IMG/VR virus record: IMGVR_UViG_3300034110_001262
Location: 1-36,318 of that record
DNA length: 36,318 bases
Strand: one strand, 5' to 3'
Source: a virus
Position numbers and translations under genes: made by a program. The notes below the pieces were generated by a model. The model had not been told where the DNA came from and searched no databases. It worked only from the letters and a program-made list of their open reading frames with translations. Shown piece by piece: positions 2,853 through 23,558 of the stretch (its first letter is position 1; every line of letters begins with the position of its first letter).

Positions 2853-5800
2853 ATGAGCAAATTTCATGACGACTTCCTTTCTGTAGAAAATGCAGCACAC
2901 CGTGGCGCATTTGGGCAGAACGATCTCCCAATCCCTTCGTATGCACAGGCCAAGGCGGGCAACTATATGGTTGGCCGAACGACGCTGTATGGCTTGCCGA
3001 TAGCCATTGAACAGCCGCGTCATTCTTATCGCACGGGGATTGGTGCGAATGGAGCACGCTGGGCTAATCGCATGGCGGCTCATTACGGTTATTTTTCAGG
3101 CACTAAGGGCGCGGATGGGGACGGGGTGGATTGCTTCATTGGCCCGTGTCTACAGGCAGAGTGCGCTTATGTGATTAACCAATACATCGCTGGTCAATTT
3201 GACGAGCACAAAGTCATGCTTGGCTTCTTGGATGAAGGCATGGCGCAGCGTGCCTATTCCGATAGCTATGACCGCAATTGGGCGGGCCTGAAATCCATTA
3301 TTCCAATCACAATTAATCAACTTCGCTGGTGGCTCAAGCGGGGCGATTTAACGCGCCCGTTAGCAGCCCACACATTGCCAGCCCAAGGAATTGAAACAAT
3401 GCTTAAACCACCTATTTGGGATGCGGATGCAAACATCACCGGCCAAACGCTAGATCAATGCTTATATGCAATCCGCCGTAGCGATGAGGGGCTATTGCTG
3501 GATTCGGTTTGTGCCGCTGATATTTATGAGGATAGCGACGGGGTGATCTTGCTGGATGCGCTTGTTATACCGTTTGTTAAGTTGCAGCGAAAAATGACGG
3601 TGGTTCAAAAAGTGATGGAGCGGGTATCGGTCAAAGTTAAGCCGGTGTCCATGACGGTTAGCGATCCCTTTAAGCTGCGCGGGGCGGCTCAGGTTGCGGT
3701 GATCTATGATCTTTCAGATGGGCAAACGGTGAGTATTCTTTTTCATAATCCAGATAGCACGCCTAGCAAGATTTTACCTAGTGACGAGATGATCAGCTGG
3801 AAGTGGATGCTGAATAAAAAAGATATCACCATCGTTGTGGCTCCTGAGCGCGGTGCGGATTTGAATATAAATGAAGTGGCGCGGCGCATCATGAAGTTGG
3901 CAGAGAAAAATAGTGCTGCTTTCATGCGTGCTAATGCCAAGCGCTCAGAACGAATGGCCGCCATAGCAGGGGTAAAAGAAGAGGTCGCTTCGCTAGAAGC
4001 TGAGCTTGGGCAATTGCAGAATGATTTGGAAGTGGCAAAACAAGACGCCGAAGATCGAAAAATGCGGGGCGATTCCCCTGAGAGCACGCCACAGCCCGCC
4101 GAGGCTTCAGATGTTGTCGCTCATTTGGGGGAGGCTGAAGAGCCGCTTATTACCGCTTCTGACGATCAAGTTACCACCCCTGAAGCTCAAGCTTTACCAC
4201 TGGAAGTGCCTAAAGAGGTTATTGCCATTATTGAGCCATTGGTAGTCGAAGAGGTGCCAGAGCAAGATGAAGGCCGTGAAAGTATTGTTAAAACAGCAAA
4301 GGGCACGAAAGTCGTTACGGGCTTTAAAGTCGTTGAAGCATCAATTTTAATTGCATCCCATGATATCGACGGCAATGAAAATCCGCTTTACCCGATGGAA
4401 TTACAGCCGCGTGATCGCTCCCGTGATACGTCTATTGCGTGGGTAAAGAAAACTGCAGCCAATTTAGACCCAGAAAGCCTAGGGCGTACTAGCCGCGCGG
4501 ACACCGGCGCGCCGATTGTTGGGCCTGATTGGGTGGTTGAATCGGGCAATGGCCGGACGATGGCTATTCTTGAGGCGTATAGAACGGGGCAGGCAGTCGA
4601 GTACAAGCAGTGGTTAATTGATGAGGCTGATTATTTCAAAATTTCAGCAGAAAAAATAAGTGTGATGCAGCAGCCGGTGCTTGTTCGCGTAAGAAAATCA
4701 AATATTGATCGCCGTGAATTTGCCGTAGAGGCGAATCAGGACGACAAGCTGGCGATGACGGCAACAGAGCGGGCTCGCTCTGATGCAAAACGGCTGACCG
4801 ATGATCTTGTTTCTCGCATGGGTGAAAGTGGTGATCTGCTCGCGACAGAAAATGCGCTGTTCTTGGCTGGGTTCTTGCAATCTTTGGGTGATGCAGAGTC
4901 GGCTCAATATGTCACAAGCAATGGTAAGCCTACAGCCTCACTGGTGGCCCGTGTGCAGGCGGCGATTTTCTCCAAGGCGTATAACGATGATCGACTTTTA
5001 GAGCTGACAGCGGACTCGGCCAAGCCAGAGATTGCCAACGTGATTAACGCGTTAAATTCAGCGGCTCCATCATTTATTCAAGCAGCAAACGTAAACCAAG
5101 CCGGTGTAGAGGGCATTACCAAGCAGCTGACTGATAGTATTGAGCTGTCACTCAATAAACAGGCGGTTGATGCTGTTATTGGTGCGATCAATGTGGTGTT
5201 AGAAGCCAAACAAAAAGGCATGGATGTTGGCGAGTTGGTGGGCCAGCGCGGGCTATTTGGCGACACTGATCCTAATATTGCGGCTATGGCTGTATTCATC
5301 GCTAAAAATAGCCGTAGCGGTAAGCGTTTAGGCACTGCCTTCCGTGCAATGGCAGAGCATATCAAGAATGAAGGTGAACGCGCTCAAACCATAGATATGT
5401 TCGGTGATTCTGTTCCTGTATCCTTATCTGATGTGATTGGTGCAGCCAACAAGGCGTTAGATAAAGAGTTCGGCGAAGGATCATTTAGCATTCATGCCCC
5501 TGATTTATTTTCTACGCCAGAAGCCATACCAGAACTAGCGCAAATGGCAGCTGATACGCAGCAAGATGTAGCCATGCCGCTTTCCATTGTGCTAACCGGT
5601 AAGGAACTTGGGGAGTTTCCTGATACGAATGAAGGGAAAAAAGCACTACGCAATGCAGCAAAAGAATTTGTAGCTCAATTTAGAGGGGAAATGGTCAATT
5701 GCCCTGCACTGGGCGGCAAGGTTGAAATACGTCAACGTGGTATTAAGGAAATGTTTGCTTTTTCTGGGGACTCTAGAAAGCTGAAAATAATCCCTGCGAT

Positions 5801-6536
5801 TAAGGCGCTAATCGAATCAGCTACTTTAGGGGAAACGCAACCTAACTTCAAAAAAGACAAAAAGCCCTTTTCTAATGCTTACCATCGCCTAAATAGCGTA
5901 GCTACCCTAGAAGAAAAGCTTGTCAATGTAACCGTGGTGGTTGAAGAAGATTCCAGTGGGTTATTGCACTACGATTTCTTAATTACCCCAGACCTTGCGC
6001 CAACAAAAACGGCGCTAGACCAAGTAGTCAGCGCCGAAGATGTGTTAGCCCGTTCCCCCGATCACAATTCGGGGCTTGGCAACAACTTGATCCTAGATGA
6101 TACAAATTTGCTTGTCAATCAAGTTGAGGCTACCGGCGTGCTCAATTTATTTATTGATAATGATACAAGCGTCGAAGCAGAGATCATTACGAAAGGAGTA
6201 GAAGTGATTAAAAATGAAGAGATGGGCGAGGAAGGGGCGAGTCAGGGAGAGGCTTTGCTTGCTATCGATGAAAATGAAGCGGCAAATGCGGATCAGCTTG
6301 CCCCAGTTTCTAGCCCAATGATGCAAGATACAGGCGTAGATCAAGCAGACAAGGACTACTTGCAGTCTATCGCAGATGGGAACGAAGATTTTTCTAACCC
6401 TGAGCTTGCAGACAGGTTGGAAGCGTTATATCTGAAGTATGAGCAGGATGTGGATATGGAAGCATTGGCGAGTTTGGCCGTTGATGCGTATAGCGATCAT
6501 GCTGTTTCATTTATGAACGCTGCTTTAGCCCTCTAA
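2853..6536 (+). CDS. DdrB-like polyvalent protein (InPase + ParB-like + LPD-type domains)
   Basis: The 1,227-residue protein looks like a phage polyvalent protein, a class thought to be injected with the DNA. Residues about 45-150 match the inorganic-pyrophosphatase-like domain of such proteins: a YFSGTKGADGDGVDCFIGP stretch with acidic D88, D90 and D93, then FDEHKVMLGF. Residues about 345-400 are a charged helical, probably coiled-coil, segment followed by an acidic linker. Residues about 480-650 resemble the DdrB ParB-like nuclease domain, with VVESGNGRTMAI and a following FAVEANQDD. Residues about 910-1060 resemble a large-polyvalent-protein-associated domain (LPD3-like). P1 DdrB is the closest functional parallel I know, although this protein is longer because of the N-terminal domain. 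It forms a single-gene unit closed by a terminator. The InPase and ParB calls are fairly sure; the third domain is tentative. Confidence 0.75.
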   Translation: MSKFHDDFLSVENAAHRGAFGQNDLPIPSYAQAKAGNYMVGRTTLYGLPIAIEQPRHSYRTGIGANGARWANRMAAHYGYFSGTKGADGDGVDCFIGPCLQAECAYVINQYIAGQFDEHKVMLGFLDEGMAQRAYSDSYDRNWAGLKSIIPITINQLRWWLKRGDLTRPLAAHTLPAQGIETMLKPPIWDADANITGQTLDQCLYAIRRSDEGLLLDSVCAADIYEDSDGVILLDALVIPFVKLQRKMTVVQKVMERVSVKVKPVSMTVSDPFKLRGAAQVAVIYDLSDGQTVSILFHNPDSTPSKILPSDEMISWKWMLNKKDITIVVAPERGADLNINEVARRIMKLAEKNSAAFMRANAKRSERMAAIAGVKEEVASLEAELGQLQNDLEVAKQDAEDRKMRGDSPESTPQPAEASDVVAHLGEAEEPLITASDDQVTTPEAQALPLEVPKEVIAIIEPLVVEEVPEQDEGRESIVKTAKGTKVVTGFKVVEASILIASHDIDGNENPLYPMELQPRDRSRDTSIAWVKKTAANLDPESLGRTSRADTGAPIVGPDWVVESGNGRTMAILEAYRTGQAVEYKQWLIDEADYFKISAEKISVMQQPVLVRVRKSNIDRREFAVEANQDDKLAMTATERARSDAKRLTDDLVSRMGESGDLLATENALFLAGFLQSLGDAESAQYVTSNGKPTASLVARVQAAIFSKAYNDDRLLELTADSAKPEIANVINALNSAAPSFIQAANVNQAGVEGITKQLTDSIELSLNKQAVDAVIGAINVVLEAKQKGMDVGELVGQRGLFGDTDPNIAAMAVFIAKNSRSGKRLGTAFRAMAEHIKNEGERAQTIDMFGDSVPVSLSDVIGAANKALDKEFGEGSFSIHAPDLFSTPEAIPELAQMAADTQQDVAMPLSIVLTGKELGEFPDTNEGKKALRNAAKEFVAQFRGEMVNCPALGGKVEIRQRGIKEMFAFSGDSRKLKIIPAIKALIESATLGETQPNFKKDKKPFSNAYHRLNSVATLEEKLVNVTVVVEEDSSGLLHYDFLITPDLAPTKTALDQVVSAEDVLARSPDHNSGLGNNLILDDTNLLVNQVEATGVLNLFIDNDTSVEAEIITKGVEVIKNEEMGEEGASQGEALLAIDENEAANADQLAPVSSPMMQDTGVDQADKDYLQSIADGNEDFSNPELADRLEALYLKYEQDVDMEALASLAVDAYSDHAVSFMNAALAL

Positions 6537-6560
6537 TTCCCGCTTTTAGCCACACCCCTA

Positions 6561-6584
6561 AAACCCGCATTCCTGCGGGTTTTT
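6561..6584 (+). terminator. Rho-independent terminator after the DdrB-like gene
   Basis: A perfect 9-base stem (AAACCCGCA / TGCGGGTTT) with a TTCC tetraloop runs into a T-rich tail, 24 bases after the stop codon. It separates this gene from the next late promoter. Confidence 0.9.
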
Positions 6585-6597
6585 CTCGTTCTGAGAT

Positions 6598-6639
6598 AGG
6601 AAAACCCAAGCAAAACGACCAGAGCGCGACACATAAAAT
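6598..6639 (+). promoter_or_regulatory. Late promoter 2 (GGAAAAC / -10 type)
   Basis: AGGAAAAC is followed after 28 bases by TAAAAT at 6634-6639, the best -10 match of the seven sites. The predicted start point is near 6646, giving a leader of about 18 bases that contains the GGAGAG ribosome-binding site of the darB-like gene. Confidence 0.7.
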
Positions 6640-6663
6640 AAACCGATATTTTTGGAGAGTTTT

Positions 6664-9600
6664 ATGTTTGTTTTGGATCGTGCATCTGGGCTAAGTATTA
6701 GCCCAATTAAGAAAATGAAATTGAGTAAAGATGGCGCGCAGCTTGCAATACAAATTGCTACGGAAAAAAGTAGCGGGAAACCCCGAAAAATATTGATTAT
6801 TCAGCTCACTAAGCAGCTTATAGCCGTCAAGGCGGCTTTGTTTGGCTCACATTCGTTACCTGCCAAGCCCGATCCCGAAGTAATGAGCCAGGAGCCACGA
6901 AACCCTAGCGCGCAATTTTACGACTATGACCAAGATAGAAAGCCTGCTCAGCGTAAGCGCGAGAATGCTTCGGCGATGGCATTACTAAAGCAAGTTGAGT
7001 CTGGCGAGGTAGACGGCGCAGCGCTGAGCGCCGAACAGAAGCAAATCTTAGCAAAATATTCTGGCACAGGCGGGGCGCTGGTTGGCGCGGACGGCAAGAA
7101 AGGCAGCCAATATGAATACTTCACGCCTAAGCCTATTGCAGAGGGTATCTGGTCGCTGATGGCCGAAATGGGCTTTGCTGGTGGTAAGGTGCTTGATCCG
7201 TGTGCGGGGGCGGGCGTATTTGGTGCTACCGCGCCGACAAGTGCTTTAATCGATGCGGTGGAGCTCAATGCAACATCTGGCCAAATTAATGCGCTCGTAA
7301 ACAACGGCACCGGCTACACAACCACCATTAGCCCCTTTGAGCGGGTAGCGGCATCGACTCCCGATGAAACTTATGATGCGGTAGTTACTAATGTCCCGTT
7401 TGGTTCAAATGCAAGCCGTGGTGGCAATCAAGCGCTAGATTCTCGCCATAAAAGCGCATCTATTCATGCCTATTTCGTTTTACGTTCCTTAGAGAAATTA
7501 CGGCCTAACGGGCTGGCTGTTTTTATCACGCCCCCCGCGTGCGTCTCAGGCAAAGGCAAGGCCGACAAAGTGATGCGTATTCGAGCTAGCTATATGGCTG
7601 AGTTTTTGGGCGCGTACCGACTGCCGAATTCAGTATTTGGCACAGCGGCGGCGGATACGATGACCGATGTGATGGTGTTTAGAAAGTACAGCACCGAAGT
7701 GGCTGAGAAAATTCAAGAATTGAGGGATCAGTCCCCAATTACGCTGGTTGATGCAAAAGTCCAATGGGATGAATTCAACGAAGGCAAGTATTTCTTAGGG
7801 GAGGGCAAGCGGTTTGTATTGGGCGAATTTATTGCTAAAACGGACCCGAAGGATAAATGGGATCGTGATCGCGTGCATAGCACCGCGTCTATGGGTGAGA
7901 TTGGCAAGCTTTTTAAAAAGTTTCCCGGTTCAAGGGTGGATTGGGAGGCATTAAATGGCATTGAAACGCTGCCTATTTTGTATCGAGACGGCGATACGCT
8001 GACTCAAGCGGGCCAGACACTGGAAATGAAGGACGGCCAGTGGGTTGCACTTGCCAAGACGACGGATGATGAGGCCGCAATGGCTTTGGTCGGTCAATTT
8101 GCTGATCCATATAGCGCCTTTGAAAATGCCATGCCTTTTTCAAGCGCTGTGCGCGTGATTGATTACATGGAGAAAACAGGCCAAGCGCTCAATACGCCTT
8201 CTTGGTTGCGTGGCGCGGTATTTGAGTTAAACAAGCTGGCCAGCAATGGCGATAAAGAAAAATATTGGAATGCCGGCATTGTTGGCATGGCTTGTACTCA
8301 GGTGCTTGATGAGCGGCTGTCGAGTGATGGGCAGGGGGTTGATTTTGTTGCAGAGTACGCCGCCCTTAGTGATGCCATGCAGCGTTCTGCTCTGGCGGCC
8401 AAGGGGCGGCCAAGCATTTTAAGTGGCGACGTAAAAAAGGGGCTAGATCAGCTTGGCCTGCACTTCACAAAGAAAGCGGGGTTTTCTGCGGTTTGGCGGG
8501 GAGATGTTAATCAGCGACAAGACAAAGTCGTGACTGCTGACGGTGGGTTTGAAGGCTTGCGCTATCGAAGTAAGTCCATCTGGGTGCCGCGAGAAGAGGC
8601 CGCGAAGCTTTACGGCGAATCGTTCGACCCAGAAGGTAGTGACGAATGGTGCCTTAGCCCAGACGGCAATAGCGTTACCCGTGCCGGTGATTACTATATT
8701 GGCAATTACGCCGTGTTTATTAAGAAGATTGATCGCGAAATAGCCGCTGCCACGGATGAGGGCATTAAAGCCAAGTTGCTACGGCAGAAGCTAGGCGCGA
8801 AAGAACGCATCGATATGATCGACGTTTCAAAAATGTCATTTAACTTGTTTAGCCCCCATGTGACTGCTGAAGAAAAAGCAGAGTTTTTACGGCGCAATGT
8901 CAGCAGTTACGCTGTTGTGGTGACGGATGAAAGAACAGGTGTGCAACGGGTGGATATTGATATTCCATCTAGTGCGGTGCGTACAGATCGAGACAAGATT
9001 TTAAACCGGCTGGGTGATTATCTAAAGAAAGGCTCAATGACGCTGGGTAGCACCAAGATGAGTATTTCTAAGGCGGATGCGTTTAATGAGTTCCGCCAGT
9101 TGGTTCGAGAGGTCAATGAGCAGTTTGATGGCTATGTGAAGGCCAAGAAGCAGATTATTGCTCGCTTGGAGGCAAAGGCCAGCGATCCTGAGCTATTGCG
9201 CTTCTCCCAGGTTGATGATGAGTCCTACATGCCCATTGCCGGGTTGCGCCAATTCAATCCTGAGAATGGCGAGCCACTTGCATTGCATGGCTACCAGAAT
9301 GCCTTTGTGCGCAAAATGAGCCGAGAGTTTGGCGGCATTAACGGTTTTGGTGTTGGCCTAGGCAAGACGTTTACCGCGCTCGCTTCGGTGCAATATGCGC
9401 ACAACATCGGTGTAAAAAATAAAACTGTGTTTGTGGTTCCTAATTCTGTGCTTTCCAATTGGAAGAAAGAAACCAATAAGGCTTACGAGAATACAGACGA
9501 TTGCCTGTATGTCGGCTTGCGGGTGAATAAAAATGGTAAGGCTCAGGTGTTATCGAGTGCGGTGGATGCCGACTTAACCAGCATTATGGAAAATCGGCAC

Positions 9601-12600
9601 AGCAAGATTTTCATGACGATGGAAGCCTTTGAGAAAATCAATTTACGCCAAGAAACGATAGAAAAGTATCGTGACTACTTGATGAAGTCGGATTCTAGCT
9701 TTGCTGAAAGCGAAAGCAAAAAAGAAGACGAAGAAACAAAAAGCAAAACGATGACGCTGGTTGAAGTACTGACTAGAAGCAAAGGCTCTGCCCCATTTTT
9801 GGAAGATTTAGGCGTTGATTCGCTGGTTGTGGACGAGGCACACGCATATAAAAACAGCAGCTCTGTCGTCAACTTTGAAGGTGCAAAATTCTTATCACTA
9901 GGCAAGATCGCTAGTCGCGGCATTGATATGCAGGCCAAGGCTTGGTTTGTGCGCGGGCAGTCATCTTTGGGTGATGGGGTGTTGCTACTCACGGCGACGC
10001 CCATTACAAACAGCCCGCTAGAAATCTATTCGATGCTGTCACTGGCCAACGGGCACGGGCGTGTCAATGAGCTGTGTCTTGGGGTAAAAGGTGCCGATGA
10101 ATTTATGGAGATGATGTGCGAGAAGGAAAATCAAAATGATATTTCAATTGATGGGGTAGAGCGAAATATCAATGTGTTTGTTGGGCTTAATAATGTTGAT
10201 GTGATGCGTAAGGCTATTTTATCAACATCAACCATTTTGTCTGCCGATGAAGTTGGCGCGCAAGTGGTCGTGCCTGATGCAGATAGCCAAGCAACAAGTG
10301 TGACGCTGCCTGCGGCAACCTTTAAGCAGCTTATCCAATACAAGGAGGCGTTTCGCTGGGCGATTGATGAGAAGTCTTCAGAGCATAGCGGTAAGAATAA
10401 TCGCGGCAACCAGACCTCTTTTGATGAGGTTTCTTTGAAGTTTGGAGAAAGCCCTGAGCTGATGGCCAGCCCGTTTAACCTGATCAATAAAATGACCATG
10501 CTCATTCTTGATCCAGAGCTGGATGCTCGGTATACAAAATATATTGTAAGTGAGTCGGAAATTGATGCGTGTCAGGCCGTCGTTGATTTGTTTAATGGGA
10601 AAAAAACGCTAGAAAAAAGATCACTCCCTTCCCCTATTACCGACCCAGACGCAATCGTATCTCAAAAAACCGTCAAGGATACCAGCGAGGGCGGTGATGA
10701 AAAATTCGAGTTTTCAATCCAAGTACGGGCCAAGATGGTGGGCAATACCGTTTTGCTGGACACCCAAAGTGGCAAGCTACAAGCCGCATTTGAGGCGATG
10801 GCAGAAAAAGCCAAGCTTGATCTTGATGTTGAGTGCCCGCCTAAAATGGCGGCAATGATCGAGAACTTTAGAATTGAAATGGCCAATCCACGGGGCGTGG
10901 ATGCAGAAGGGAAACGTTCTTCTATCGTAAAGCAAATTGTATTCTGCGATATGTTGCCGTCCCACAATAAAATTAAGCGGCTATTGGTGAAGCGGTGTGG
11001 CATTCCATCATCACAGATTACGTTTATTACTGGGCAAACCAACAATAAACCCGATGAAATTTTAGAGGTTCAAGACGGGTTTAATGCAGGGGGTGAAGAG
11101 TCGAAATACAGTGTGATCATCTGTAATGAGAAAGCAGAGGTAGGTATTAACCTGCAGATTGGCACGCAAGCAATCCACCACCTGACTATTGGCTGGACGC
11201 CAGACAGCTTGACTCAGCGAAATGGGCGCGGTGTACGGCAGGGGAATAAAACTAAATCTGTGACTGTTTATAGCTACGATGCTGACGGTACTTTTGATTC
11301 ATCCAAACGCTCATTAGTACAGAAAAAAGCCGGTTGGATTGATGGTGTCATGGATGTCAATGGCGATAGCCATATTGCGGTAACAGGGGGCATGCGAGAT
11401 TCTGAAATGGATTCTCTGATTGAGGTGCTTGGCAATAGTGAGGCTATGGGCTGGTTGCAAGAGTCGATTGAGGCTAAAAACGCAGAGCGCCGCGCCGAAA
11501 CACTGCGAGATAAGCAGCTGATCAATTTAAGCACCATGAATAAGCAGCGGGCCTATCTTGATGAAAATCCGTCTTCCAAAAAATTAGCAGTAAGTAAACT
11601 GGTTACGTTTTGGTCGCTGGATAAGCAAATACAAATGCTTCGTGAGCGGATTGCAAACCCGAGCGCTTCTGCTAGCGCGATTGCTAAAAATGAGGCGACG
11701 CTGGCTGATTATTTGGTGCGGGCCAAGTCATTACGCGCCATGATTGATTCAGAGATCGTCTTTGTGTTTTCGGGGTACAACAAGAGCTATTTAGAGCGAG
11801 AATACGGCGTTGCGGGGATTGAGAGTGCATTTAAGTTGTTCAATCGAAAGTACGATGTAAAAAAACGTACTCCAAGAGCGGTATTTGATTTCTTTACTGG
11901 AAACTATGGTATTGGTTTTGATGTGAGTGCCGATGGAGAAATCCAAAATGAATGGCAATCAGAAAACGATATGTCTATTGGTTTATTGGCTGAGGCAAAA
12001 ACCAACTTTATTAAGCAAAGCGCAGGGAGTGGAAGCCTGCCCGCATCGCTTGCGGAGTCCATGGAAAAAGGGGAAGCCTCCTCTGTTTTTGGCTTTATCA
12101 TGGCGAATGGCTCACTGGTCAAGGAAACGGCGAGCGATGGCGTCGTTCGGCTCTATATTGCGACTGACAGCGGTAAGAAAGGTCAGTATTTGGTTGGCGA
12201 GCATACTGGGGCAATTGCTTTCACGCATGACATGCTTAAAAACGCCACAATCGCGCATGCGGGCTCTGCTGAATATGACGCGCTAGTCACATTGGCCGCA
12301 ACGATTGAAGATGATGCAAATGTGAATGGCACCGGCGCTAACTTATTTAGTGACGCGATCCCAGAAGTTGGCCAGCGCCGTAAAAGTATCGTTTCTATTA
12401 AATATCTTGCTGCTTATAGCACCTTGCCATCGCCTTATTTTCCTTATGTCATGCTGAATTCATCGGGCGGTTCGGCGTTAATTCAAGCCATTCGGCGACA
12501 GCAGAGTACGGCTGTTGTGCTTGCTGAGCGTGGGCATTTCTATGCCCCGTCCACGCTGGGCGTCGTTAATAAAGCTCTCTCAAGTCGTGTTGTGGATGAG

Positions 12601-13724: not shown

Positions 13725-13755
13725 AAAAACCGAACCGCTCCGTTCGGTTTTTTTT
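13725..13755 (+). terminator. Rho-independent terminator after the darB-like unit
   Basis: Stem AAAAACCGAAC / GTTCGGTTTTT with a six-base loop CGCTCC runs into eight consecutive T residues. It ends unit 2 just before late promoter 3. Confidence 0.92.
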
Positions 13756-13776
13756 CGCCTCTTCTAGTCACTCTCA

Positions 13777-13884
13777 AAACAGGAAAACGACGCGTTTTGC
13801 CCTTTTTGTGCGAGCTGAGAATGAGCACTTACCGCGCTGCTATTAGCGCAAGTGCTTTATTCGCATAAACAGAGGGGCGAGTTG
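13777..13884 (+). repeat. Duplicated leader, copy 1 (upstream of capsid gene)
   Basis: About 108 bases are roughly 85% identical, by eye, to the segment at 18045-18153. The shared part includes the late-promoter motif, the -10 region, an inverted repeat GCACTT-acc-GCGC ... GCGC-AAGTGC at 13825-13855 and the AGGGGCGA ribosome-binding region. The leaders of two different operons therefore descend from one ancestral segment. Confidence 0.85.
13781..13822 (+). promoter_or_regulatory. Late promoter 3 (GGAAAAC / -10 type)
   Basis: AGGAAAAC is followed after 28 bases by GAGAAT at 13817-13822. The predicted start point is near 13829, leaving a leader of about 56 bases before the capsid ATG. The GGAAAACG half is also inverted by CGTTTT three bases later at this site. 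Confidence 0.65.
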
Positions 13885-15555: not shown

Positions 15556-15580
15556 TAAACGCATCAATAAGGGCGCACAA

Positions 15581-16306: not shown

Positions 16307-17964
16307 TGGCCTCTTTTACTCGGCAAATTGGCAGTGAGTCTGGCGTACAGCTCAATCCGCTCAACGATAACTCTGAAATCAGTGCTTCAGACAACCAGGA
16401 TCAGGTTTTCGCGATTTTGATGCGGGCCACGCGTGGGCGTATCGATAAACCATTTCTGGTCAATCGTGGCAATGTCTATCGTAAGTTGGGCAACGGCGAG
16501 CAAATGCGTGTTTCCCAGCTGAATGAAGCATGGGTGCATGTGGTTGAAGCGCTGGATTCTGGCGCGTATAGCGCAGTTGTTCAGCGGCTTATTACCTCTG
16601 CATATGAAATTAAGTATGCGACGGCAAAATATAAACCCGATGTTACAGAGTTAGGGTCGAAGAAAACCGCTTCTAAATCGGTTGTTTTCTCTGTGGATAA
16701 AGATGCCCCTAACGGTGATTTTATTGTGTCCGTTCGCCATCTGGAATGCCATAACGACGGGATTAAGATTGAAATTCATGCGGATGAAAAGAAAATTGGC
16801 GGTGTGGCTGTTGCTAATGATCGCGTCACTTTACGTCTCTTTGATTCTGCTGATGTGCGTCTTTATGAATTTACGGGGTCGTTAGATCCAGCGGCAAAGG
16901 ATGATTATGGCAATTCTGCGTATTTGCCTGATGTTGTTTCATTGCAAACCGACACGGTTGAAATTGAAACAGGGGTGAAATCAGTTGATCCGCTGTCAGT
17001 ATTTTATGGCTACGACGATAACTCTAAGCCTAATACCGTTAAATCTGAGGTTCTGGTGTGTTTTACCGAAGGGGGTATGGCTTATACGACTAAGGACTAT
17101 TTAACGGGGCGTGAAAACCTTCAATATACCCCGTTGAATTATAGCTATATCGCGGCGGGTGGTACAAAAGCGCCTGCTTTGCTTAGTCAGTTAGCAACCC
17201 TGGCATTTGAAACCAATCGGCAACTGAAGTTTGATGTGCCTAGTGAGCTAGACGAAGAGGCAGCTATTGCCTTTGTTGAGCAGCTTAACTTCGGTGCTAG
17301 CCAAACGGCTCATTTGTTGCACGCTTTCTGGTCGCCTCTAAAGTCAAATGATCCAACCGGCATTAACCCGAGTGGTTTTTTTGGCGTGGCCACGCTGAAT
17401 ATTGCGATGGCGTGTGGTCGCAATGCGCGAGTGGATGATAAAGGCTTTGCGCCAAAGAACTACCCAATTGCTGGCCGAGAATGGCCGATTCGACGCACTC
17501 GGATTATTCAAACTCGGACCCCTCGCGGCCCAGAATTAAACGCTTTGGCCCGAGCAAAAATCAATCCGGTCTTGTATGAAACATACACCGGCGGGGGGCG
17601 GTACGTGTTTCTTGATTCCCTTACAAGCGCAATGGTTGAGTCTAGCTTGAAAAAACTAATCTCAGTCGCGGATATGTCAACCAGCGTTGATGACACCGTA
17701 ACGCGTGTTGCAAAAGATAATTTGCAGCTGCCCATGGCGGTTTCAATTAAGCGCACGCGTGATTTTCTTGCTACTTATTTTGAAGGGGCTCAGGCAGCCG
17801 GTTGGATTGTTCCAAGTGATGACCCTGCGATGGGCGGTGCGGCATGGTCGTTTGATGTTCGCCCAGACAGCGTTCGTCCTTATGACCGCATGCAAGTTTC
17901 GTACTCCCTACGCTATGACGGTACAAATCGACAAACCTTTGTGACGCATACGCTTTCTCGATAA
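16306..17964 (+). CDS. Contractile tail sheath protein (P1 gp22-like)
   Basis: The 552-residue protein resembles myovirus sheath subunits in length, position and C-terminal sequence. The end reads as the conserved sheath domain: ARAKINPVLYETYTGGGRY with a FLDSLTSA strand, then about 100 residues later GAAWSFDVRPDSVRPYDRM and a final beta strand suited to the sheath handshake. The N-terminal third (residues 25-60) has the insertion-and-plug region VFAILMRATRGRIDKPFLV. It is the last gene of unit 3, followed 28 bases later by a terminator. Contraction of this protein around the tube drives DNA injection. Confidence 0.8.
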   Translation: MASFTRQIGSESGVQLNPLNDNSEISASDNQDQVFAILMRATRGRIDKPFLVNRGNVYRKLGNGEQMRVSQLNEAWVHVVEALDSGAYSAVVQRLITSAYEIKYATAKYKPDVTELGSKKTASKSVVFSVDKDAPNGDFIVSVRHLECHNDGIKIEIHADEKKIGGVAVANDRVTLRLFDSADVRLYEFTGSLDPAAKDDYGNSAYLPDVVSLQTDTVEIETGVKSVDPLSVFYGYDDNSKPNTVKSEVLVCFTEGGMAYTTKDYLTGRENLQYTPLNYSYIAAGGTKAPALLSQLATLAFETNRQLKFDVPSELDEEAAIAFVEQLNFGASQTAHLLHAFWSPLKSNDPTGINPSGFFGVATLNIAMACGRNARVDDKGFAPKNYPIAGREWPIRRTRIIQTRTPRGPELNALARAKINPVLYETYTGGGRYVFLDSLTSAMVESSLKKLISVADMSTSVDDTVTRVAKDNLQLPMAVSIKRTRDFLATYFEGAQAAGWIVPSDDPAMGGAAWSFDVRPDSVRPYDRMQVSYSLRYDGTNRQTFVTHTLSR

Positions 17965-17992
17965 GGCGGGCTTTGCACGGAGTGATTTAACT

Positions 17993-18023
17993 AAAAAACC
18001 AGGCTCTCATGTCTGGTTTTTTT
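17993..18023 (+). terminator. Rho-independent terminator after the sheath gene
   Basis: Stem AACCAGGC / GTCTGGTT with one G-T pair and loop TCTCAT is followed by a run of seven Ts. It separates units 3 and 4. Confidence 0.88.
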
Positions 18024-18044
18024 CGTTTTACCCGTCGATTTTTG

Positions 18045-18153
18045 AAACAGGAAAACGACGAGATTTCCCCCTTTTTTGCGAACTGAAAATAAGCACTTAC
18101 CGCGCCGTTATTGGCGCAAGTGTTTTATTCGCACAAATAAAGGGGCGAAGTGA
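18045..18153 (+). repeat. Duplicated leader, copy 2 (upstream of the EF-hand protein gene)
   Basis: This is the second copy of the capsid-gene leader. The inverted repeat is kept: outer arms are GCACTT/AAGTGT with one wobble, and the inner arm becomes GCGCC/GGCGC. The differences sit mostly where pairing is preserved, which hints that the structure matters. The ribosome site AAGGGGCGAAG is also conserved. Confidence 0.85.
18049..18090 (+). promoter_or_regulatory. Late promoter 4 (GGAAAAC / -10 type)
   Basis: AGGAAAAC is followed after 28 bases by GAAAAT at 18085-18090. The predicted start point is near 18097, with a leader of about 57 bases, the same layout as promoter 3. Confidence 0.65.
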
Positions 18154-18846
18154 ATGAGTGGCACAATCGATTTAAGAGCCTTAGTACGGGAAGCAATGGC
18201 ACGGTCAACATTGGATTCTACAGCCGAAGATAAACCGTCCAAGCGTGAGCGTCAGCTCAAGGGGGCGGCAGCCCATACTGATAATGAAAATAAGCTTAAA
18301 GCCCTTGGCGTACTCCATCAATGGGCAGAAAACGAAGACCTTGATGATGGCGAAACAAACGCAGATCGCTTAATGGCCTTGTTTATTGGGATTGCCGACG
18401 AAAATAAAGACGGTGAAATCTCAGAGGATGAGCAAGATATTGTTGATGTTGTACTGAACGCGGCATGGGACTACTTGGCCCAAAAGGGCGTTGATGACGA
18501 CGACTTGGATTTGCTCCTTAACGAGTGGGATGACGATGCCGGTGATCGTATTCGCGATTTGCTGGCTGCGTCATTGCCTGATGGCGAGGCTGCAGCTGAT
18601 GAAATTGATGATTTTGTTTTTGGTGATGACGATCAAGAACCTGTGTTTGATGCGGTTTATAAAAAGAAAATGGTGATTCGTGGTGGCAAAAAGGTTCGTA
18701 TTAATAAACGTGTTTCTGGGAATGTTCGTTTGTCTGCTAAGCAGAAAGTAGGGCTACGCAAGGCACGGATTAAAAGCCACTCTGCGGGGGCTCAGATGAA
18801 GCGCAAGAAGTCTTTGCGCATGCGTAGCAAGATGAATTTGAAGTAA
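18154..18846 (+). CDS. Acidic EF-hand protein with basic tail, probable head core/scaffold-like protein
   Basis: The 230-residue protein has three parts. The N-terminal 65 residues are helical and mixed in charge. The middle is strongly acidic and contains a textbook EF-hand loop at residues 82-93, DENKDGEISEDE, with all calcium ligand positions filled. A second acidic region with many Asp residues follows. The last 60 residues are very basic and end in KRKKSLRMRSKMNLK, like the tails of internal head or prohead core proteins in myoviruses. Charge separation of this kind fits scaffolding inside the shell. Its leader is a copy of the capsid leader, which suggests co-expression with capsid. Calcium binding is predicted from the motif; the core role is inference. 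Confidence 0.6.
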   Translation: MSGTIDLRALVREAMARSTLDSTAEDKPSKRERQLKGAAAHTDNENKLKALGVLHQWAENEDLDDGETNADRLMALFIGIADENKDGEISEDEQDIVDVVLNAAWDYLAQKGVDDDDLDLLLNEWDDDAGDRIRDLLAASLPDGEAAADEIDDFVFGDDDQEPVFDAVYKKKMVIRGGKKVRINKRVSGNVRLSAKQKVGLRKARIKSHSAGAQMKRKKSLRMRSKMNLK

Positions 18847-18855
18847 TTGCCACAT

Positions 18856-18883
18856 GGGGACGGCTAGGCCAGCGTTCCCTTTT
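18856..18883 (+). terminator. Possible weak terminator or attenuator within unit 4
   Basis: GGGGACG pairs with CGTTCCC (one G-T pair) and is followed by only four Ts. It may lower expression of downstream tail genes relative to the abundant first gene. Confidence 0.4.
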
Positions 18884-18897
18884 CTGGAAGAAATGAC

Positions 18898-19632
18898 GTG
18901 GCTAGATTGGGTTCGATATGGCGGGGGTTAAATCCTCATTTAATCGCAAGTATTTATCAGTGTAATAAGCAGGGTGAAATTGAAGGGGACACGTATGTCT
19001 GTGGGCCGCTAACTGAATCAAATTTAGAAATTTCATTGAATTGGCAATCGCCATTTGAATCGGCAGGGGCAGAGAGTAAAGCACCGGCGCTCGCGTCGAT
19101 GTTGCAGTCAGGCATGTTGCAACCGCTGGTTGATGCTGTGATGCCTGATGGCAGCAAGAAAGATGAAGCCACTGAAGTATTAAAAAACTTTTATGGCAAA
19201 ACAGGCATTACCAAACTGAATTCCACACAGGTTTTTTCAGGGATGCCGCCGGTAAAAATTCAGATTTCCATGCTGCTTCGGGCGTGGAGTGATCCAAAAA
19301 ATGAAGTAGAAGCGCCATTTAATCAGCTGGTGGAGTGGGGCTTGCCGGAAGAGTTGGCGGATTCCAGCATTATTGGCAATGTCATCGATGCGGCAAAAAG
19401 CCTTGATTTTGCCAAGGGCATTAATACATTGATGCCGTCCAAGGCACCCATTCTGATTGGAATGACCTACAAGGGCAGAACCTACGCGCCAATGGTGCTT
19501 GAAAGTATTGGCCAGCCACTTAATGCGCCTATTGATACGAATGGCTATTTCACTGAGCTGCTTGTGCCCATGACACTTTGCACCTTAACGGCCCTTGATC
19601 GTCGAGACTGGGCAAGAATGAGCCATAGCTAA
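18898..19632 (+). CDS. Probable baseplate/tail protein
   Basis: The 244-residue soluble protein has the pattern of baseplate or tube-end proteins. A strand region at about 103-120 reads GMPPVKIQISMLLRAWSDP with a following PFNQLVEWGLPEEL, and the C-terminal part has APILIGMTYKGRTYAPMVLESI, then a diverging strand pair ending LVPMTLCTLTALDRRDW. I do not know the exact family; P1 BplB is a candidate by position near the sheath. The start is GTG with TGGAAGAA upstream; a nearby ATG at 18893 is out of frame. Nine bases separate it from the next gene. Confidence 0.55.
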   Translation: MARLGSIWRGLNPHLIASIYQCNKQGEIEGDTYVCGPLTESNLEISLNWQSPFESAGAESKAPALASMLQSGMLQPLVDAVMPDGSKKDEATEVLKNFYGKTGITKLNSTQVFSGMPPVKIQISMLLRAWSDPKNEVEAPFNQLVEWGLPEELADSSIIGNVIDAAKSLDFAKGINTLMPSKAPILIGMTYKGRTYAPMVLESIGQPLNAPIDTNGYFTELLVPMTLCTLTALDRRDWARMSHS

Positions 19633-19641
19633 AGGTATTTT

Positions 19642-20367
19642 ATGCACTTTATCCCACTTAGAACACGCAGGTTTACTGTTCAGCTTAAAGAGCTATCCAT
19701 TGGCCAAAGTATTGCATTGGCAGGTTTTAATGAAAAAACAGAGCAGGCCGCGCTCACCGAGTTTTTAAGAATGGCAACATCGACCGTCAAAGGGATTGAT
19801 GACCCGGCTAAATGGACGATTACAGAACGCGTCTTTACGCTGTGTCATTACCTGTCTTCAATGCTGCCCGATGGGCCGGACTTCTCAGTAGGAAGTCACA
19901 AATACAGCGACTATATGGGCGGTAGCGAATCAAGCAAAGAAGGTGAAGAAATAGAGCTGGGCGAGCTGTCGGGGGATGTGTGGCTGATTCGCAATTTAAC
20001 CGGAGCAATGGCAGAGTCCATTGAGCGGCTAGTCGATGACTCAGACCTCAATGGGCGTTTGCACTGGGTAATTGGGGCGATGGCCGCTCAATTGACCCGT
20101 AAAGGGGAGGTCGTGCCAGAGGATGACCTAGACGAATGGCTTTTGGACAGAATGAAGGTGATTGTCGCTTTCCCTGAAAGTGATTTTATTCAGCTTTCAA
20201 GCCTATTTTATGAGGGCAGTGAGCGATTAAATAACTGGTTCAATTTCACATTTGATGCAGATGGGGTTTTGATTTTACCAAGGGAGGGCGCGGAGGATGA
20301 TGTTCCCCCTGCGCGGTTTCTTGTTCGTGCCTGCATCAGTAAATTTGCGTGCTCAATGGTCGAATGA
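19642..20367 (+). CDS. Tail assembly chaperone-like or baseplate protein
   Basis: The 241-residue acidic, mainly helical protein begins RRFTVQLKELSIGQSIALAGF, followed by WTITERVFTLCHYLSSM near residues 60-76. That pattern resembles T4-type baseplate-assembly proteins and tail chaperones, but I cannot name the family. Its 3' end overlaps the next gene by about 70 bases in a different frame, an arrangement common in tail-chaperone gene pairs. A +1 (or -2) frameshift would be needed to fuse them. No slippery heptamer was evident by eye. Confidence 0.5.
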   Translation: MHFIPLRTRRFTVQLKELSIGQSIALAGFNEKTEQAALTEFLRMATSTVKGIDDPAKWTITERVFTLCHYLSSMLPDGPDFSVGSHKYSDYMGGSESSKEGEEIELGELSGDVWLIRNLTGAMAESIERLVDDSDLNGRLHWVIGAMAAQLTRKGEVVPEDDLDEWLLDRMKVIVAFPESDFIQLSSLFYEGSERLNNWFNFTFDADGVLILPREGAEDDVPPARFLVRACISKFACSMVE

Positions 20368-20599
20368 GCTTTTTGAGTTGGCTAGCAATTTTTGCTTATA
20401 TGCCAATACGTCCTTGCATGATGCTCTTTCAACGTCAGCAAGCATTGCGGATCAATTTTTTAAGTCGGCTGCATTTAAAGACAAGCAAAAATCGTTTGAT
20501 TCTGAGGTGAAAATTCAGGTGGCCGTGGTTAATCGGCTTAACAGTGTCATTCAAGCCATTTGCTCGCTTGGGAAGCTCTTCGCAGATAGGAAAACGTAG
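20297..20599 (+). CDS. Small overlapping phage protein, 100 residues
   Basis: This unrecognised helical protein starts inside the 3' end of the preceding gene. The start is supported by AGGGAGG nine bases before the ATG, one of the strongest ribosome sites in the window. After the overlap, the sequence WSNELFELASNFCLYANTSLHDALSTS and the following lysine-rich region read as a real protein and run to the end of unit 4. A shorter ATGA-overlapping reading at 20364 in a third frame was considered less likely. A partner of the preceding chaperone-like protein is the best guess. Confidence 0.5.
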   Translation: MMFPLRGFLFVPASVNLRAQWSNELFELASNFCLYANTSLHDALSTSASIADQFFKSAAFKDKQKSFDSEVKIQVAVVNRLNSVIQAICSLGKLFADRKT

Positions 20600-20629
20600 C
20601 AAGAATGGGTGTATGTCATGCCACAAGAT
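20588..20629 (+). promoter_or_regulatory. Late promoter 5 (GGAAAAC / -10 type)
   Basis: AGGAAAAC is followed after 28 bases by CAAGAT at 20624-20629. It overlaps the last codons of the preceding gene. The predicted start point is near 20636, giving a leader of about 23 bases before the tube-like gene. Confidence 0.6.
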
Positions 20630-20658
20630 AGTGTCTTAATCTATCAAAGGCATTTGAA

Positions 20659-21159
20659 ATGGCAGTTTCTAAAGCATCCTATTTAAAGGGGTTGTTTTCA
20701 AAAGCTCAGGCTTTAGGCAAAAAAGTAATTTCGAGTGATTTTTGCTTAGAGATCGAAGGTTTTGAAGGCACCTACCTTCTTTGCAAACAAGCGCCTTGGC
20801 CGCAAATCTCATCAGCAGGTGAGATTGAGCTGTCAGGCCCGCTTGGGATGACCATGTATCAACCGCAGCAAGTAAAGGTTGCTCAGCAAGGGCAAGTTTC
20901 ATTCAGTGAAGTGACGGCAGGCAGCATTGATCAAATGCTGGTTGATTTAATCGCTCAAGGCGGAACGTTCAATTGCAAGGTATATGAAGGCGTACCGACA
21001 AAGTATTTGCGCTACAAGCCGCTGATTGAGTGCTTCTTGCAAATGGATAACCCAGACCGTGATTGGGAAAATCGATCACAGCCTCTTCTCTTTAGCGGCA
21101 CGATGTTTTTTCATTACTTCGGCGAAGTGGTCGAGGGCAATTCAAAAGATTACGCATAA
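20659..21159 (+). CDS. Probable tail tube protein
   Basis: The 166-residue protein is predicted to be mostly beta, of tail-tube size. Strands such as VKVAQQGQVSFSEV, a central helix SIDQMLVDLIAQGG and the closing strands LLFSGTMFFHYFGEV fit the tube fold shared by gp19-type proteins. It has a dedicated promoter directly upstream, in keeping with a subunit made in many copies. It leads the tail-tip genes of unit 5. P1 has a tube gene (tub) that this may match. AAAGG lies nine bases before the start. An alternative is a tube-like baseplate protein. Confidence 0.55.
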   Translation: MAVSKASYLKGLFSKAQALGKKVISSDFCLEIEGFEGTYLLCKQAPWPQISSAGEIELSGPLGMTMYQPQQVKVAQQGQVSFSEVTAGSIDQMLVDLIAQGGTFNCKVYEGVPTKYLRYKPLIECFLQMDNPDRDWENRSQPLLFSGTMFFHYFGEVVEGNSKDYA

Positions 21160-21162
21160 ACG

Positions 21163-21537
21163 ATGCAAAATATTAGTTCCTTGGCTGATCAATTTGCCAC
21201 ATTAGAGCGCCCAACGGGTGTCATGCTGGATGACGAAACGGTACAAGCCAATTTAATTGCCGCGACAAGATTCCATGCTGGGTGGGCCAGCTTGAAACAT
21301 CAAGATGATGCAGAGGCGATCACTGGGGATACTCATCTTAGCCATTCAGAGTGGGCGTTAATTCGCCCGCTCTTTATGCTGTATATCGAACGAGAAACGG
21401 CCCTGCAGTTAGAAGCATCCAGAGGCTTGGGGCTCGACGTGTTTGGCCGGTCAACGAGCGAGATTGCAGGGGAAATTACCCAGGCAGAAATGGAACACCC
21501 CCGCAAGGCGTTTTGTATGCGCGCTTTTTCGGTGTAA
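21163..21537 (+). CDS. Phage protein of tail region, 124 residues
   Basis: This short helical protein is of a type seen near baseplate genes in P1-like and related myoviruses; I cannot name the family. The conserved-looking core is SEWALIRPLFMLYIERETALQLEASRGLGLDVFGRSTSEI at about residues 65-104. It starts three bases after the tube-like gene, without a strong ribosome site, so it is probably translationally coupled. No membrane or signal features are present. Confidence 0.6.
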   Translation: MQNISSLADQFATLERPTGVMLDDETVQANLIAATRFHAGWASLKHQDDAEAITGDTHLSHSEWALIRPLFMLYIERETALQLEASRGLGLDVFGRSTSEIAGEITQAEMEHPRKAFCMRAFSV

Positions 21538-21540
21538 GGG

Positions 21541-22434
21541 ATGATACTTTGCACTGAAAATGGCGAGTTAGTCCGTGGCGATTTAATCAAAACGTCAGTG
21601 GTACGGTCTGATATGGCCCCTATCCCGTTTACGCTAGAAGCTGAAATCCGTGTGTTGGATGGTGACGGGAAAGCGCTGCTTGCCACAGGCAAGAAAATAC
21701 AATGTGGCGGCGGTGATTGGCTCACGATCATTAAGTCAGTGTATGCAGAGAATGGGCATTCACAAGGAGATTACAACATGGCCACGGTAAAGCTGACGGC
21801 TTTGCTTGATGAGTGTCATTCAATTTCCTTTGCACGAGAGCGCCCCGTGATTAAAGAGTCTGCGACATTGTTGCAAATCTATAGAGCATGTGGGGCGACG
21901 TTAAAAGCGATTGATGCTGATTTTCCCGTGCCTAGATTCTCATGTTTTTCTGGCGATGCGCCGAGTTTTCACCTGGCAAGGGCTTTACAAGAGCTGGGGG
22001 GCGTCGTTCGCTGGAAAAATGGCCGGCTGCGTTTTTTTAGGTTGCCAGACCTTTTTAAGCAGCCCCCTATCATGAGCCTGCCCAATGACACGATGGAAGA
22101 CACGGAAAGTGGCTTTTTAGAGCGGCATGAAATTCCCGCTTTTTTCTCAGTATTGCCATCAGGCAGCATTGTTATGGGTGATCAGAATAAAGCGCGCTCC
22201 AAATTCTTTACCCCATTCAAAAGCAAGCAAGAGCTAAACAATATGAGTCGTTGTTTAGTTTCAAAAAAGGTAGCCCGAGTTAGCTTTGATATGCAAATTT
22301 CAGCGGGTGATCTTGTATCCACGCCAAGTGAAAATTTGGTCGTTTTAACGGCTGCCCACGCTTATATAAACGGCATTGATGGTGGGAATACAGAGCAATA
22401 CACACGATTGTGGCTAGCGAGGATGGAAGGTTGA
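21541..22434 (+). CDS. Probable baseplate hub protein
   Basis: The 297-residue protein is placed immediately before the spike gene, where a gpD/gp27-like hub is expected. It has paired beta regions (residues 30-70 and 225-280), a middle segment ATLLQIYRACG near 105-115 and a second helix FHLARALQELGGVVRWKNGRLRF near 140-162. The latter pattern, an element followed by RW.NG.L.F, is typical of VgrG/gpD hub domains that process short peptides or sugars. AAGGG abuts the ATG. The stop overlaps the probable TTG start of the spike gene (TTGA). Confidence 0.6.
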   Translation: MILCTENGELVRGDLIKTSVVRSDMAPIPFTLEAEIRVLDGDGKALLATGKKIQCGGGDWLTIIKSVYAENGHSQGDYNMATVKLTALLDECHSISFARERPVIKESATLLQIYRACGATLKAIDADFPVPRFSCFSGDAPSFHLARALQELGGVVRWKNGRLRFFRLPDLFKQPPIMSLPNDTMEDTESGFLERHEIPAFFSVLPSGSIVMGDQNKARSKFFTPFKSKQELNNMSRCLVSKKVARVSFDMQISAGDLVSTPSENLVVLTAAHAYINGIDGGNTEQYTRLWLARMEG

Positions 22435-23072
22435 AAGTAAACAAAGATTTTGGCCTGATGGGAGGGCGTTACCCCGCATCTATCGCTAGTTATGACCCCC
22501 ATAGCCGCCTTTGTCGCATTCATATTAATGGGCTAACGGATGGCTGCGAAACCCTTCCTCTTGCCGAAATTGAGTACCCAATTGGCGATAAATCAAAACC
22601 TTCAGATAAATCCACTGAGATTGAAATGGTGACAGGGGACACGGTTTGGATTGCTTTTATTGGAGGGGATCAGCGCTACCCAATTATCACTGGCTACAGA
22701 AACCCTACAGAGGGTAACTCGGTCGGGTGGCGACGCTTCCACCATGAAAATATCGAGCTGTTGGCCGCCGCGTTGCTAAACATCATCGCAGAGAGCGATA
22801 TTCTCCTTAAATCTAACTCAAAAATAACGCTACAAGCACCGGAAGTGTTTATTGATTCGCCAAGCACGTCGATGACGGGTGATGCACTTGTCCAGAAAGC
22901 ATTGGCTTTCCTTGGTGGTATGACGGGGAGCGGTGGCAGTGCTGGCGGCCCATCTGCTGTTATTAGCGGCGGGATGGAGATATCCGAGGATGTTGTGATT
23001 GCAGGAAAATCATTCTTAGGCCACACCCATATGGAACAGGGTGACGGCAACACTGTCAGCCCGCCTATTTAG
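22431..23072 (+). CDS. Tail spike/baseplate assembly protein V-like puncturing protein
   Basis: The protein of about 213 residues has an N-terminal OB fold (YPASIASYDPHSRLCRIHI, then VWIAFIGGDQRYPIITGYR near residues 58-84) and a short beta-helix (ILLKSNSKITLQAPEVFID). It ends in GHTHMEQGDGN followed by SPP, matching the metal-binding tip of P2 gpV-type spikes, where an HxH motif binds iron. TTG at 22431 was chosen because AGGA lies seven bases upstream and it overlaps the preceding stop; GTG at 22410 would add seven residues. A glycine/serine-rich loop (GGMTGSGGSAGG) precedes the tip. It is distinct from the vgrG at the left edge. Confidence 0.82.
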   Translation: MKVNKDFGLMGGRYPASIASYDPHSRLCRIHINGLTDGCETLPLAEIEYPIGDKSKPSDKSTEIEMVTGDTVWIAFIGGDQRYPIITGYRNPTEGNSVGWRRFHHENIELLAAALLNIIAESDILLKSNSKITLQAPEVFIDSPSTSMTGDALVQKALAFLGGMTGSGGSAGGPSAVISGGMEISEDVVIAGKSFLGHTHMEQGDGNTVSPPI

Positions 23073-23081
23073 GAAAAAAAG

Positions 23082-23558
23082 ATGAAAACAACATTATTTA
23101 ATTTCGACGACTTATCCGCAAAAAGCAAAGAAACCAAAGCGGTGATGAAGATTTTTTCAAAAGCTGGATCGCCGGTGGTTTCTCAAGAAGTCAGCCCATC
23201 GACAAGGCGCACGGCAGGGGTGAGCTTTAAAGAAGTGTTCTTCACCTTTGGAGACTCGCAAACAGCGGTGTTTAGGATCAAGCAAACGGGGGATATTTTC
23301 CAAGTTTTAGTGAATGGAAAGGTCGTCCCTATCAGAAACCAAGAAGACCAAGAAAGAGCAGTCCTTGAAATTATTAGTTTTATGGACTCAGGCCGGTCTA
23401 GGTTTCAGAAGAAGCTGGCGGCAGTTGCCGTAAAACTGCCGCCATCGATTAGAACCGCAGCTCCAAAAATGGAGACTTTGCTAATTCAACGGCGCGATAC
23501 CTTGAAAGAAATGATCGAAGAGATTAAGTCTGAAATCTTAGCCGTCCAAGCTGCCTAA
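23082..23558 (+). CDS. DarA N-terminal-domain-like protein
   Basis: The 158-residue protein resembles the N-terminal domain of P1 DarA, which guides Dar proteins into the head. Matching features are a short start NFDDLSAK, the strand GVSFKEVFFTFGDSQTAVFRIKQTGDIFQV and the end FQKKLAAVAVKLPPS. Here it stands alone rather than heading a longer polyvalent protein. It closes unit 5 and its 3' end overlaps that of the convergent antirepressor gene by 21 bases. AGGAAAAAAG precedes the ATG as a ribosome site; this is not one of the late-promoter motifs. The call rests on pattern memory, so a profile search would be valuable. Confidence 0.55.
   Translation: MKTTLFNFDDLSAKSKETKAVMKIFSKAGSPVVSQEVSPSTRRTAGVSFKEVFFTFGDSQTAVFRIKQTGDIFQVLVNGKVVPIRNQEDQERAVLEIISFMDSGRSRFQKKLAAVAVKLPPSIRTAAPKMETLLIQRRDTLKEMIEEIKSEILAVQAA
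23417..23443. repeat. Perfect 10-base inverted repeat within the DarA-N-like gene
   Basis: GGCGGCAGTT and AACTGCCGCC are separated by seven bases. It lies in coding sequence (LAAVAVKLPPS region). It shares the GGCGGCAGT core with the C4-like RNA encoded about 1 kb away on the other strand; whether this matters is unknown. Confidence 0.5.

Follow-up and report, generated by a model that had tools for sequence, protein, structure and literature searches.

Three Dar-like genes scattered through the late region of a virus record raise the question of whether they belong to one system and, if so, how that system relates to the Dar (defence against restriction) proteins of phage P1. In a preliminary description of the window (the whole stretch of DNA analysed here, a 36,318-base virus record and probably a fragment of that record's genome), these genes were taken for a dispersed set of three pieces: a DdrB-like protein with a pyrophosphatase-like front, a DarB-like protein and a lone DarA-N-like protein. 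All three are present, although a homologue of Ulx had been missed and two of the three proteins have proved to be something more specific than described (Table 1). With a probability of roughly three in four, the set represents a P1-type Dar system in a fused form, in which DarA would act as the chassis and from which the proteins would be ejected with the DNA. The suggestion of a variant antirestriction system draws good support from gene context and from the homology of its members to five Dar proteins of P1.

By gene content, the phage is a P1-like myophage. In addition to the major capsid protein, the window encodes the tail sheath, tail tube, baseplate, portal (phrog_1497), tape measure and antirepressors, and the dar genes adjoin those for capsid, sheath and portal. 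Homologues of Hdf, the DarA core, the N-terminal half of DdrB, DarB and Ulx are found among the late genes, as in P1, and three of them (Hdf, Ulx and DarB) match PHROG families named after P1 proteins. A near-identity search found no near-identical phage record. An origin in a defence island was considered and rejected, since the PADLOC matches comprise only generic methyltransferase and helicase domains (in DarB) and one marginal match (in the fusion protein).

Table 1. Positions of the dar features, associated late promoters and capsid gene in the window
Feature	Position	Strand	Basis
Late promoter of fusion gene: GGAAAAC 2806-2812, -10 TAGTAT 2841-2846	2806-2846	+	
InPase-DarA-DdrB-LPD3-C-tail fusion protein, 1227 aa	2853-6536	+	Pfam, PHROGs, BLAST to P1 and Rb1, relatives
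InPase domain, aa 31-162	2943-3338	+	PF18823 (5.9e-46), alignment, PDB profile, structural match
DarA core, about aa 187-408	3411-4076	+	PF18788; P1 DarA match by sequence and fold
DdrB-like region, aa 451-876	4203-5480	+	PF18763; P1 DdrB, 41% identity; ParB N-domain structural match
LPD3 domain, aa 928-1040	5634-5972	+	PF18798 (3.4e-20)
Conserved C-terminal tail, aa 1166-1214	6348-6494	+	Iterated HMM; matches C-terminus of Rb1 head protein
Intrinsic-terminator-like hairpin in fusion/darB gap (AAAACCCGCA-TTCC-TGCGGGTTTTT)	6560-6584	+	Read from sequence
Late promoter of darB-ulx: GGAAAAC, -10 TAAAAT	6599-6639	+	
DarB homologue, 2178 aa	6664-13200	+	N6-MTase and SNF2/helicase families, PHROGs, BLAST
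Ulx homologue, 136 aa	13265-13675	+	phrog_1629 (5e-23); P1 Ulx 33%, Rb1 41%
Major capsid protein	13852		phrog_1014; 52% to Rb1 MCP
Late promoter of tail-tube unit ending with hdf	20589-20629	+	
Hdf homologue, 158 aa	23082-23558	+	PF18788 (2.2e-16); phrog_1620 (1e-33); P1 Hdf (9ukm_H)

Anatomy of the fusion protein

The protein first described as DdrB-like does carry the InPase, ddrB-ParB and LPD3 domains ascribed to it, but it also contains a DarA core and is therefore a DarA-DdrB fusion; all four families proposed for profile searches (InPase, ddrB-ParB, LPD3 and DarA_N) are matched, and the Pfam domains of the fusion lie far above the Pfam gathering cut-offs. BLAST aligns aa 275-407 with residues 126-276 of P1 DarA and aa 460-876 with residues 13-434 of P1 DdrB, so that one protein holds both, with the InPase domain in front. 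It is better put as a DarA with InPase added at the front and DdrB inserted behind. The DarA core consists of a DarA_N fold (aa 233-354; PF18788, 2.6e-43, 147 bits, compared with 60 bits for the Hdf homologue and a gathering score of 27) and a long helix predicted by AlphaFold at aa 339-405, and its PDB sequence match is P1 DarA (9ukm chain I). Within the DdrB-like region, a ParB/Srx domain (ddrB-ParB, PF18763, aa 483-615, 3.5e-33) is accompanied by a helical region, and an ESGNGRT sequence is present; of the 51 distinct DdrB sequences examined, 37 contain the SGNGR motif, which this protein also has.

Several features of the P1 proteins are missing from this arrangement. The DarA and DdrB parts are only 31-41% identical to P1, and against the NCBIfam DarA equivalog model (NF052326) the fusion scores 88 bits relative to a whole-protein cut-off of 350 bits, making it a DarA homologue rather than an equivalog of P1 DarA. 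Pfam detects no DarA_C domain (PF18789), which occupies residues 411-472 of P1 DarA, and a metallopeptidase model built from P1 and Rb1 matches nothing in the fusion or elsewhere in the window. Among relatives, the metallopeptidase half of P1 DdrB occurs as a separate gene (loci L003, L010-L013, L065, L134, L139, L152 and L160), mostly in clusters from which the ParB half is missing, so that the two parts of the protein segregate.

The structural predictions are in keeping with this domain order. An AlphaFold model of aa 1-890, made from 36 aligned sequences, has a mean pLDDT of 74.7 and a pTM of 0.41, with confident InPase and ParB parts and weak linkers. Foldseek returns P1 DarA (9vz0_I, E 2.7e-3) as its best match, followed by type I pyrophosphatases, and VIA-align places ParB N-domains at about aa 484-637 and pyrophosphatases at aa 46-165. 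These VIA-align matches are middling (Z 7.0-7.5) and agree with the sequence evidence.

The InPase domain is a putative pyrophosphatase. Its residues D88, D90 and D93, which had been thought to look catalytic, form the D-x-D-x-x-D motif of type I pyrophosphatases and are invariant in 28 aligned homologues, while an FDEHK segment at 116-120 is, together with that motif, invariant or nearly so. Searched against the PDB, a profile of these homologues finds cellular type I pyrophosphatases with the D-x-D-x-x-D residues in register; the matches are individually weak (E 0.004 and up), yet nearly all of those listed belong to the pyrophosphatase family. The predicted fold contains the OB fold and the metal site and gives middling VIA scores (Z about 7.4 over 108-111 residues). 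Retention of the active-site motif indicates that this is not a decayed domain, and a catalytic role for the three aspartates is supported. According to Iyer et al. (2017; PMC5512222), InPase is without the beta hairpin of cellular pyrophosphatases and is proposed either to clear pyrophosphate or to act on a compound resembling a nucleotide. A search of the P1 genome for InPase found none.

At the other end of the fusion is a conserved C-terminal tail of about 50 residues that, in iterated HMM searches, is nearly always separated from the end of the DarA protein by 10-17 residues. Exceptions are a locus in which 207 residues follow the tail (L152) and a weak match in L136. The tail of the window protein stands behind LPD3, and DdrB and LPD3 thus appear to have been inserted inside DarA; the cargo between the DarA helix and the tail varies widely among relatives. 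In some clusters the tail instead stands at the end of a different protein encoded in the dar cluster, 124-612 aa in length. Such proteins are encoded at L012:16985-17359 and in L011, L013/L159, L010, L065, L136/L162 and L160, and in L011-L013 the gene lies directly upstream of darB. On a separate protein, the tail could possibly be a packaging or docking tag. A homologous tail at the C-terminus of P1 DarA appeared plausible by eye but was unsupported by profile.

Separately encoded partners and the late promoter

The lone DarA-N-like protein does contain the DarA_N domain, but it is the homologue of Hdf, the partner of DarA in P1, and the notion of a free packaging tag is superseded, given that DarA itself resides in the fusion. 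The only PDB sequence match of this protein is P1 Hdf (9ukm_H). Its model (pLDDT 83.5) aligns far better with the chain of P1 DarA (Z 10.9) than with any other chain, and Hdf and the DarA core therefore share a fold. The structures of the P1 Dar system (9ukm and 9vz0) are matched by both the Hdf homologue and the DarA core. In the Hdf homologue, the DarA_N domain is followed by a predicted helix (residues 130-157) that is much shorter than the corresponding region of P1 (135-203). Differing from the P1 arrangement, hdf is the last gene of the tail-tube unit and is without a promoter of its own.

The DarB assignment was upheld by N6-methyltransferase and SNF2/helicase family matches and by identities of 47% to Rb1 DarB and 27-38% to P1 DarB. 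A single protein of more than 2000 aa combines methyltransferase-like motifs (motif I, DPCAGAGVF; motif IV, NVPF) with an SNF2 helicase (GVGLGKT, DEAH). Its start is most likely the ATG at 6664, which is preceded by a Shine-Dalgarno-like GGAGAG, rather than 6652 as originally given. In most homologues, the window and P1 proteins among them, motif IV reads NVPF instead of [ND]PP[YF] (L047 has NPPY), and methylation activity is consequently uncertain for the window and P1 proteins. No PHROG or HMM match to DdrA was found in the window; DdrA is a short protein, the model was built from two sequences and the record is fragmentary.

The three dar units had been described as separate and under one promoter type, and both points are borne out: the promoters at 2806, 6599 and 20589 precede the fusion gene, darB-ulx and the tail-tube unit, respectively. 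The late promoter has the form GGAAAAC-N28-NANNNT. All seven GGAAAAC sites in the window (2806, 6599, 13782, 18050, 20589, 25567 and 31833) are on the + (coding) strand upstream of late genes, namely, in order, the fusion gene, darB-ulx, the major capsid gene, a gene at 18154, the tail tube gene, the portal gene and a gene at 31880. The NANNNT hexamer begins exactly 35 nt after the first base of GGAAAAC at every site, an arrangement that never arose in 20,000 random anchor sets. A chance origin was rejected: although the total number of GGAAAAC sites is not enriched (7 versus 5.8 expected), enrichment is seen in their position, strand and -10 spacing. A sigma70 consensus scan found no promoter-like site at these gene starts, and P1-type Lpa boxes were rejected upon comparison, the -22 boxes of late promoters in P1 being AAGTNACT-like and thus a different element.

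Among relatives, which include Burkholderiales plasmids and contigs, the GGAAAAC promoter is common. The motif lies upstream of 21 of 30 darA genes (window included) compared with 2.4% of coding windows, and the hexamer is at offset 35 in 17 of 22 sites and at 34 in 7 (a site may count at both offsets). The ATG of the fusion gene is 6 nt downstream of its -10 hexamer, and a distance of 5-7 nt from hexamer to darA ATG is shared by about 15 relatives, which implies a leaderless or near-leaderless mRNA. Start codons at this distance were seen for darA in L007, L009, L044, L145, L147, L149 and others, and for the portal gene in L007 and L044; judging from this spacing, these late mRNAs are probably leaderless. 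The shared late promoter and the apparently leaderless darA transcripts constitute a testable regulatory trait of the lineage.

Recurrent fusions and a domain that changes carriers

Domain maps of public dar loci (numbered with the prefix L) indicate that the fused architecture is recurrent. DarA and DdrB are fused in 21 of 59 non-redundant DarA loci, isolate plasmids included, and the fused or unfused state changes at least six times on the DarA tree, which supports a physical association of the two proteins. The DarA and InPase trees were made quickly and have many weak forks, and only simple statements are drawn from them. Two Pseudomonas plasmids (P. fluorescens CP048608 and P. putida AP015032) share the InPase-DarA-DdrB order and the C-terminal tail; their proteins differ from that of the window in being about 52-55% identical over aligned parts and in having no LPD3, and no full P1-type darB was found in the flanks examined. 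It is conceivable in principle that the long ORF is an artefact of assembly or sequencing that joined two genes, given that the window is a metagenome-type fragment for which no near-identical record was found. This is extremely improbable and is refuted by the same fusion on independent isolate plasmids and contigs, the fused order recurring in CP048608, AP015032 and many contigs at 50-65% identity.

A close phage comparison is Xanthomonas phage Rb1 (PQ569993), in which the InPase-DarA front (57%), the tail, Hdf (53%), DarB (47%) and Ulx (41%) all have counterparts; by contrast, the middle of the Rb1 head protein is unrelated and contains no ParB, and the metallopeptidase protein is separate. 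Relative to P1, the window differs in its fused DarA and DdrB and in the addition of InPase and LPD3.

InPase occupies five different places across the loci: the N-terminus of DarA, the C-terminus of Hdf (L011, L012 and L038), the C-terminus of a separate DdrB (L045-L047 and L070-L076), a position after DdrB inside the fusion (L050, L068 and L155-L158), and free-standing (L018 and L021). In the InPase tree, the domains at the N-terminus of DarA fall together on one side of a branch with support 94, the Hdf-linked domains form one group (98) that is sister to one DdrB-linked group (L070-L076; 99), and the mid-fusion domains form another (97). Attachment has thus occurred, or moved, several times. 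Among the loci found with InPase-free queries plus the window, 34 have one InPase, 9 have none and none has two; for those with more than 4 kb on both sides, the corresponding counts are 24 with one and 4 with none. Although the carrier may be DarA, Hdf or DdrB, no cluster has more than one InPase in the flanks examined. A homologous InPase is also found on another virion head protein (PDB 9b41 gp19; Pbunavirus minor head proteins), where it is linked to the portal rather than to Dar proteins.

Polyvalent phage proteins, described as packaged and injected multidomain effectors, include InPase, DarA-N, ddrB-ParB and LPD3 (Iyer et al., 2017; PMC5512222). In the passages found in the main text of that paper, neither a transfer of InPase between Hdf, DarA and DdrB carriers within Dar clusters nor the insertion of DdrB into DarA is described, and no further literature on InPase within Dar was found. 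The Dar system itself is already known; as far as these papers show, its covalent DarA-DdrB form and its carrier-changing InPase are undescribed.

Possible roles in the head and on entering DNA

In P1, the inner capsid face is lined at penton-hexon junctions by 55 DarA-Hdf pairs, which touch the DNA; when Hdf and DarA are deleted, DdrB, DarB, Ulx and DdrA fail to enter the head, and all Dar proteins are absent from emptied heads (PMC12810830). P1 virions include DarB, Ulx, DdrB, DarA and Hdf, with DdrB listed as aiding the addition of DarB and Ulx as aiding its localisation (PMC9024508).

By analogy with P1, we infer packaging, InPase activity and antirestriction for the window proteins. The DarA core would form pairs with Hdf on the inside of the capsid, with DarA as a chassis bearing InPase on its N-terminus and DdrB plus LPD3 between the long helix and the C-terminal tail. 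The anatomy and the recurrence of the fusion suggest that DdrB and InPase would be packaged one-to-one with DarA and would require no separate recruitment, whereas DarB, with its methyltransferase-like part and SNF2 motor, and Ulx would be loaded as separate proteins. Upon infection, the DNA and the Dar proteins would leave the head together; the incoming DNA might then be protected against type I restriction by DarB and the DarA/Hdf/DdrB complex, while InPase could act on this DNA or close to it by hydrolysing pyrophosphate or a related phosphoanhydride. Counted against the P1-type reading are the absent DarA_C and DdrB metallopeptidase, the lack of a detected DdrA and the low identity to P1.

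It could also be that these proteins are mainly head-assembly factors that govern capsid size and stability through DarA and Hdf, with antirestriction secondary or lost and InPase and ParB as passengers. When P1 loses DarA or Hdf, about 15% of heads are normal instead of about 80% (PMC12810830), homologues in relatives are annotated as 'internal head protein' or 'head protein', and the variability of the cargo behind the DarA helix would suit passengers. We nevertheless consider this somewhat unlikely, because DarB and Ulx are retained in the same late programme and because invariant InPase residues, in a domain that has joined Dar clusters at several sites, are not expected of a passenger.

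A different concern is the fate of the InPase domain. P1 DarA is cleaved near residue 70-90 and loses its N-terminal part (PMC12810830), and in the window InPase lies N-terminal of the region that aligns to P1 DarA. A P1-type cleavage here would detach InPase and argue against stable tethering; the prohead protease might then yield a free pyrophosphatase in the infected cell or head. This outcome is unlikely, as elsewhere InPase is carried C-terminally on Hdf or DdrB, or lies inside the fusion, places from which that cut would not free it.

Returning to the P1-type system in fused form, we tentatively suggest that InPase is a recurrent, functionally coupled Dar enzyme absent from P1, acquired by different Dar carriers from separate InPase lineages, that may aid protection of entering DNA or the first steps of its replication by hydrolysing pyrophosphate or a related nucleotide there, and that DarA with its C-terminal tail may be a general chassis for head-packaged effectors. 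To our knowledge, the packaging order of the P1 Dar proteins is established and contacts beyond DarA-Hdf are not. The recurrent fusions point to a direct association of DarA with DdrB, the insertion point of DdrB suggests where on DarA the cargo sits, and the mobile InPase names an activity missing from the P1-type set.

The window contains several other genes of note. A complete type VI secretion VgrG is encoded at 1-2649 (- strand; TIGR03361, 1.3e-115; Phage_GPD, base_V, T6SS_Vgr and DUF2345), with an identity of at most 34% to the best plasmid or phage matches listed; it either belongs to host DNA flanking an integrated prophage or is carried by the phage itself next to its dar genes. Within the late region, a RelE/ParE-type toxin-antitoxin pair (upstrm_HI1419 and dnstrm_HI1420; 24851-25446, - strand) is adjoined by two antirepressor genes, one full (23538-24392) and one short (24580-24873). 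Finally, the tape-measure-like protein encoded at 28066-30753 (+ strand) has a VgrG3-like C-terminal domain (PF21277, residues 610-793) that is probably a cell-wall hydrolase for injection.
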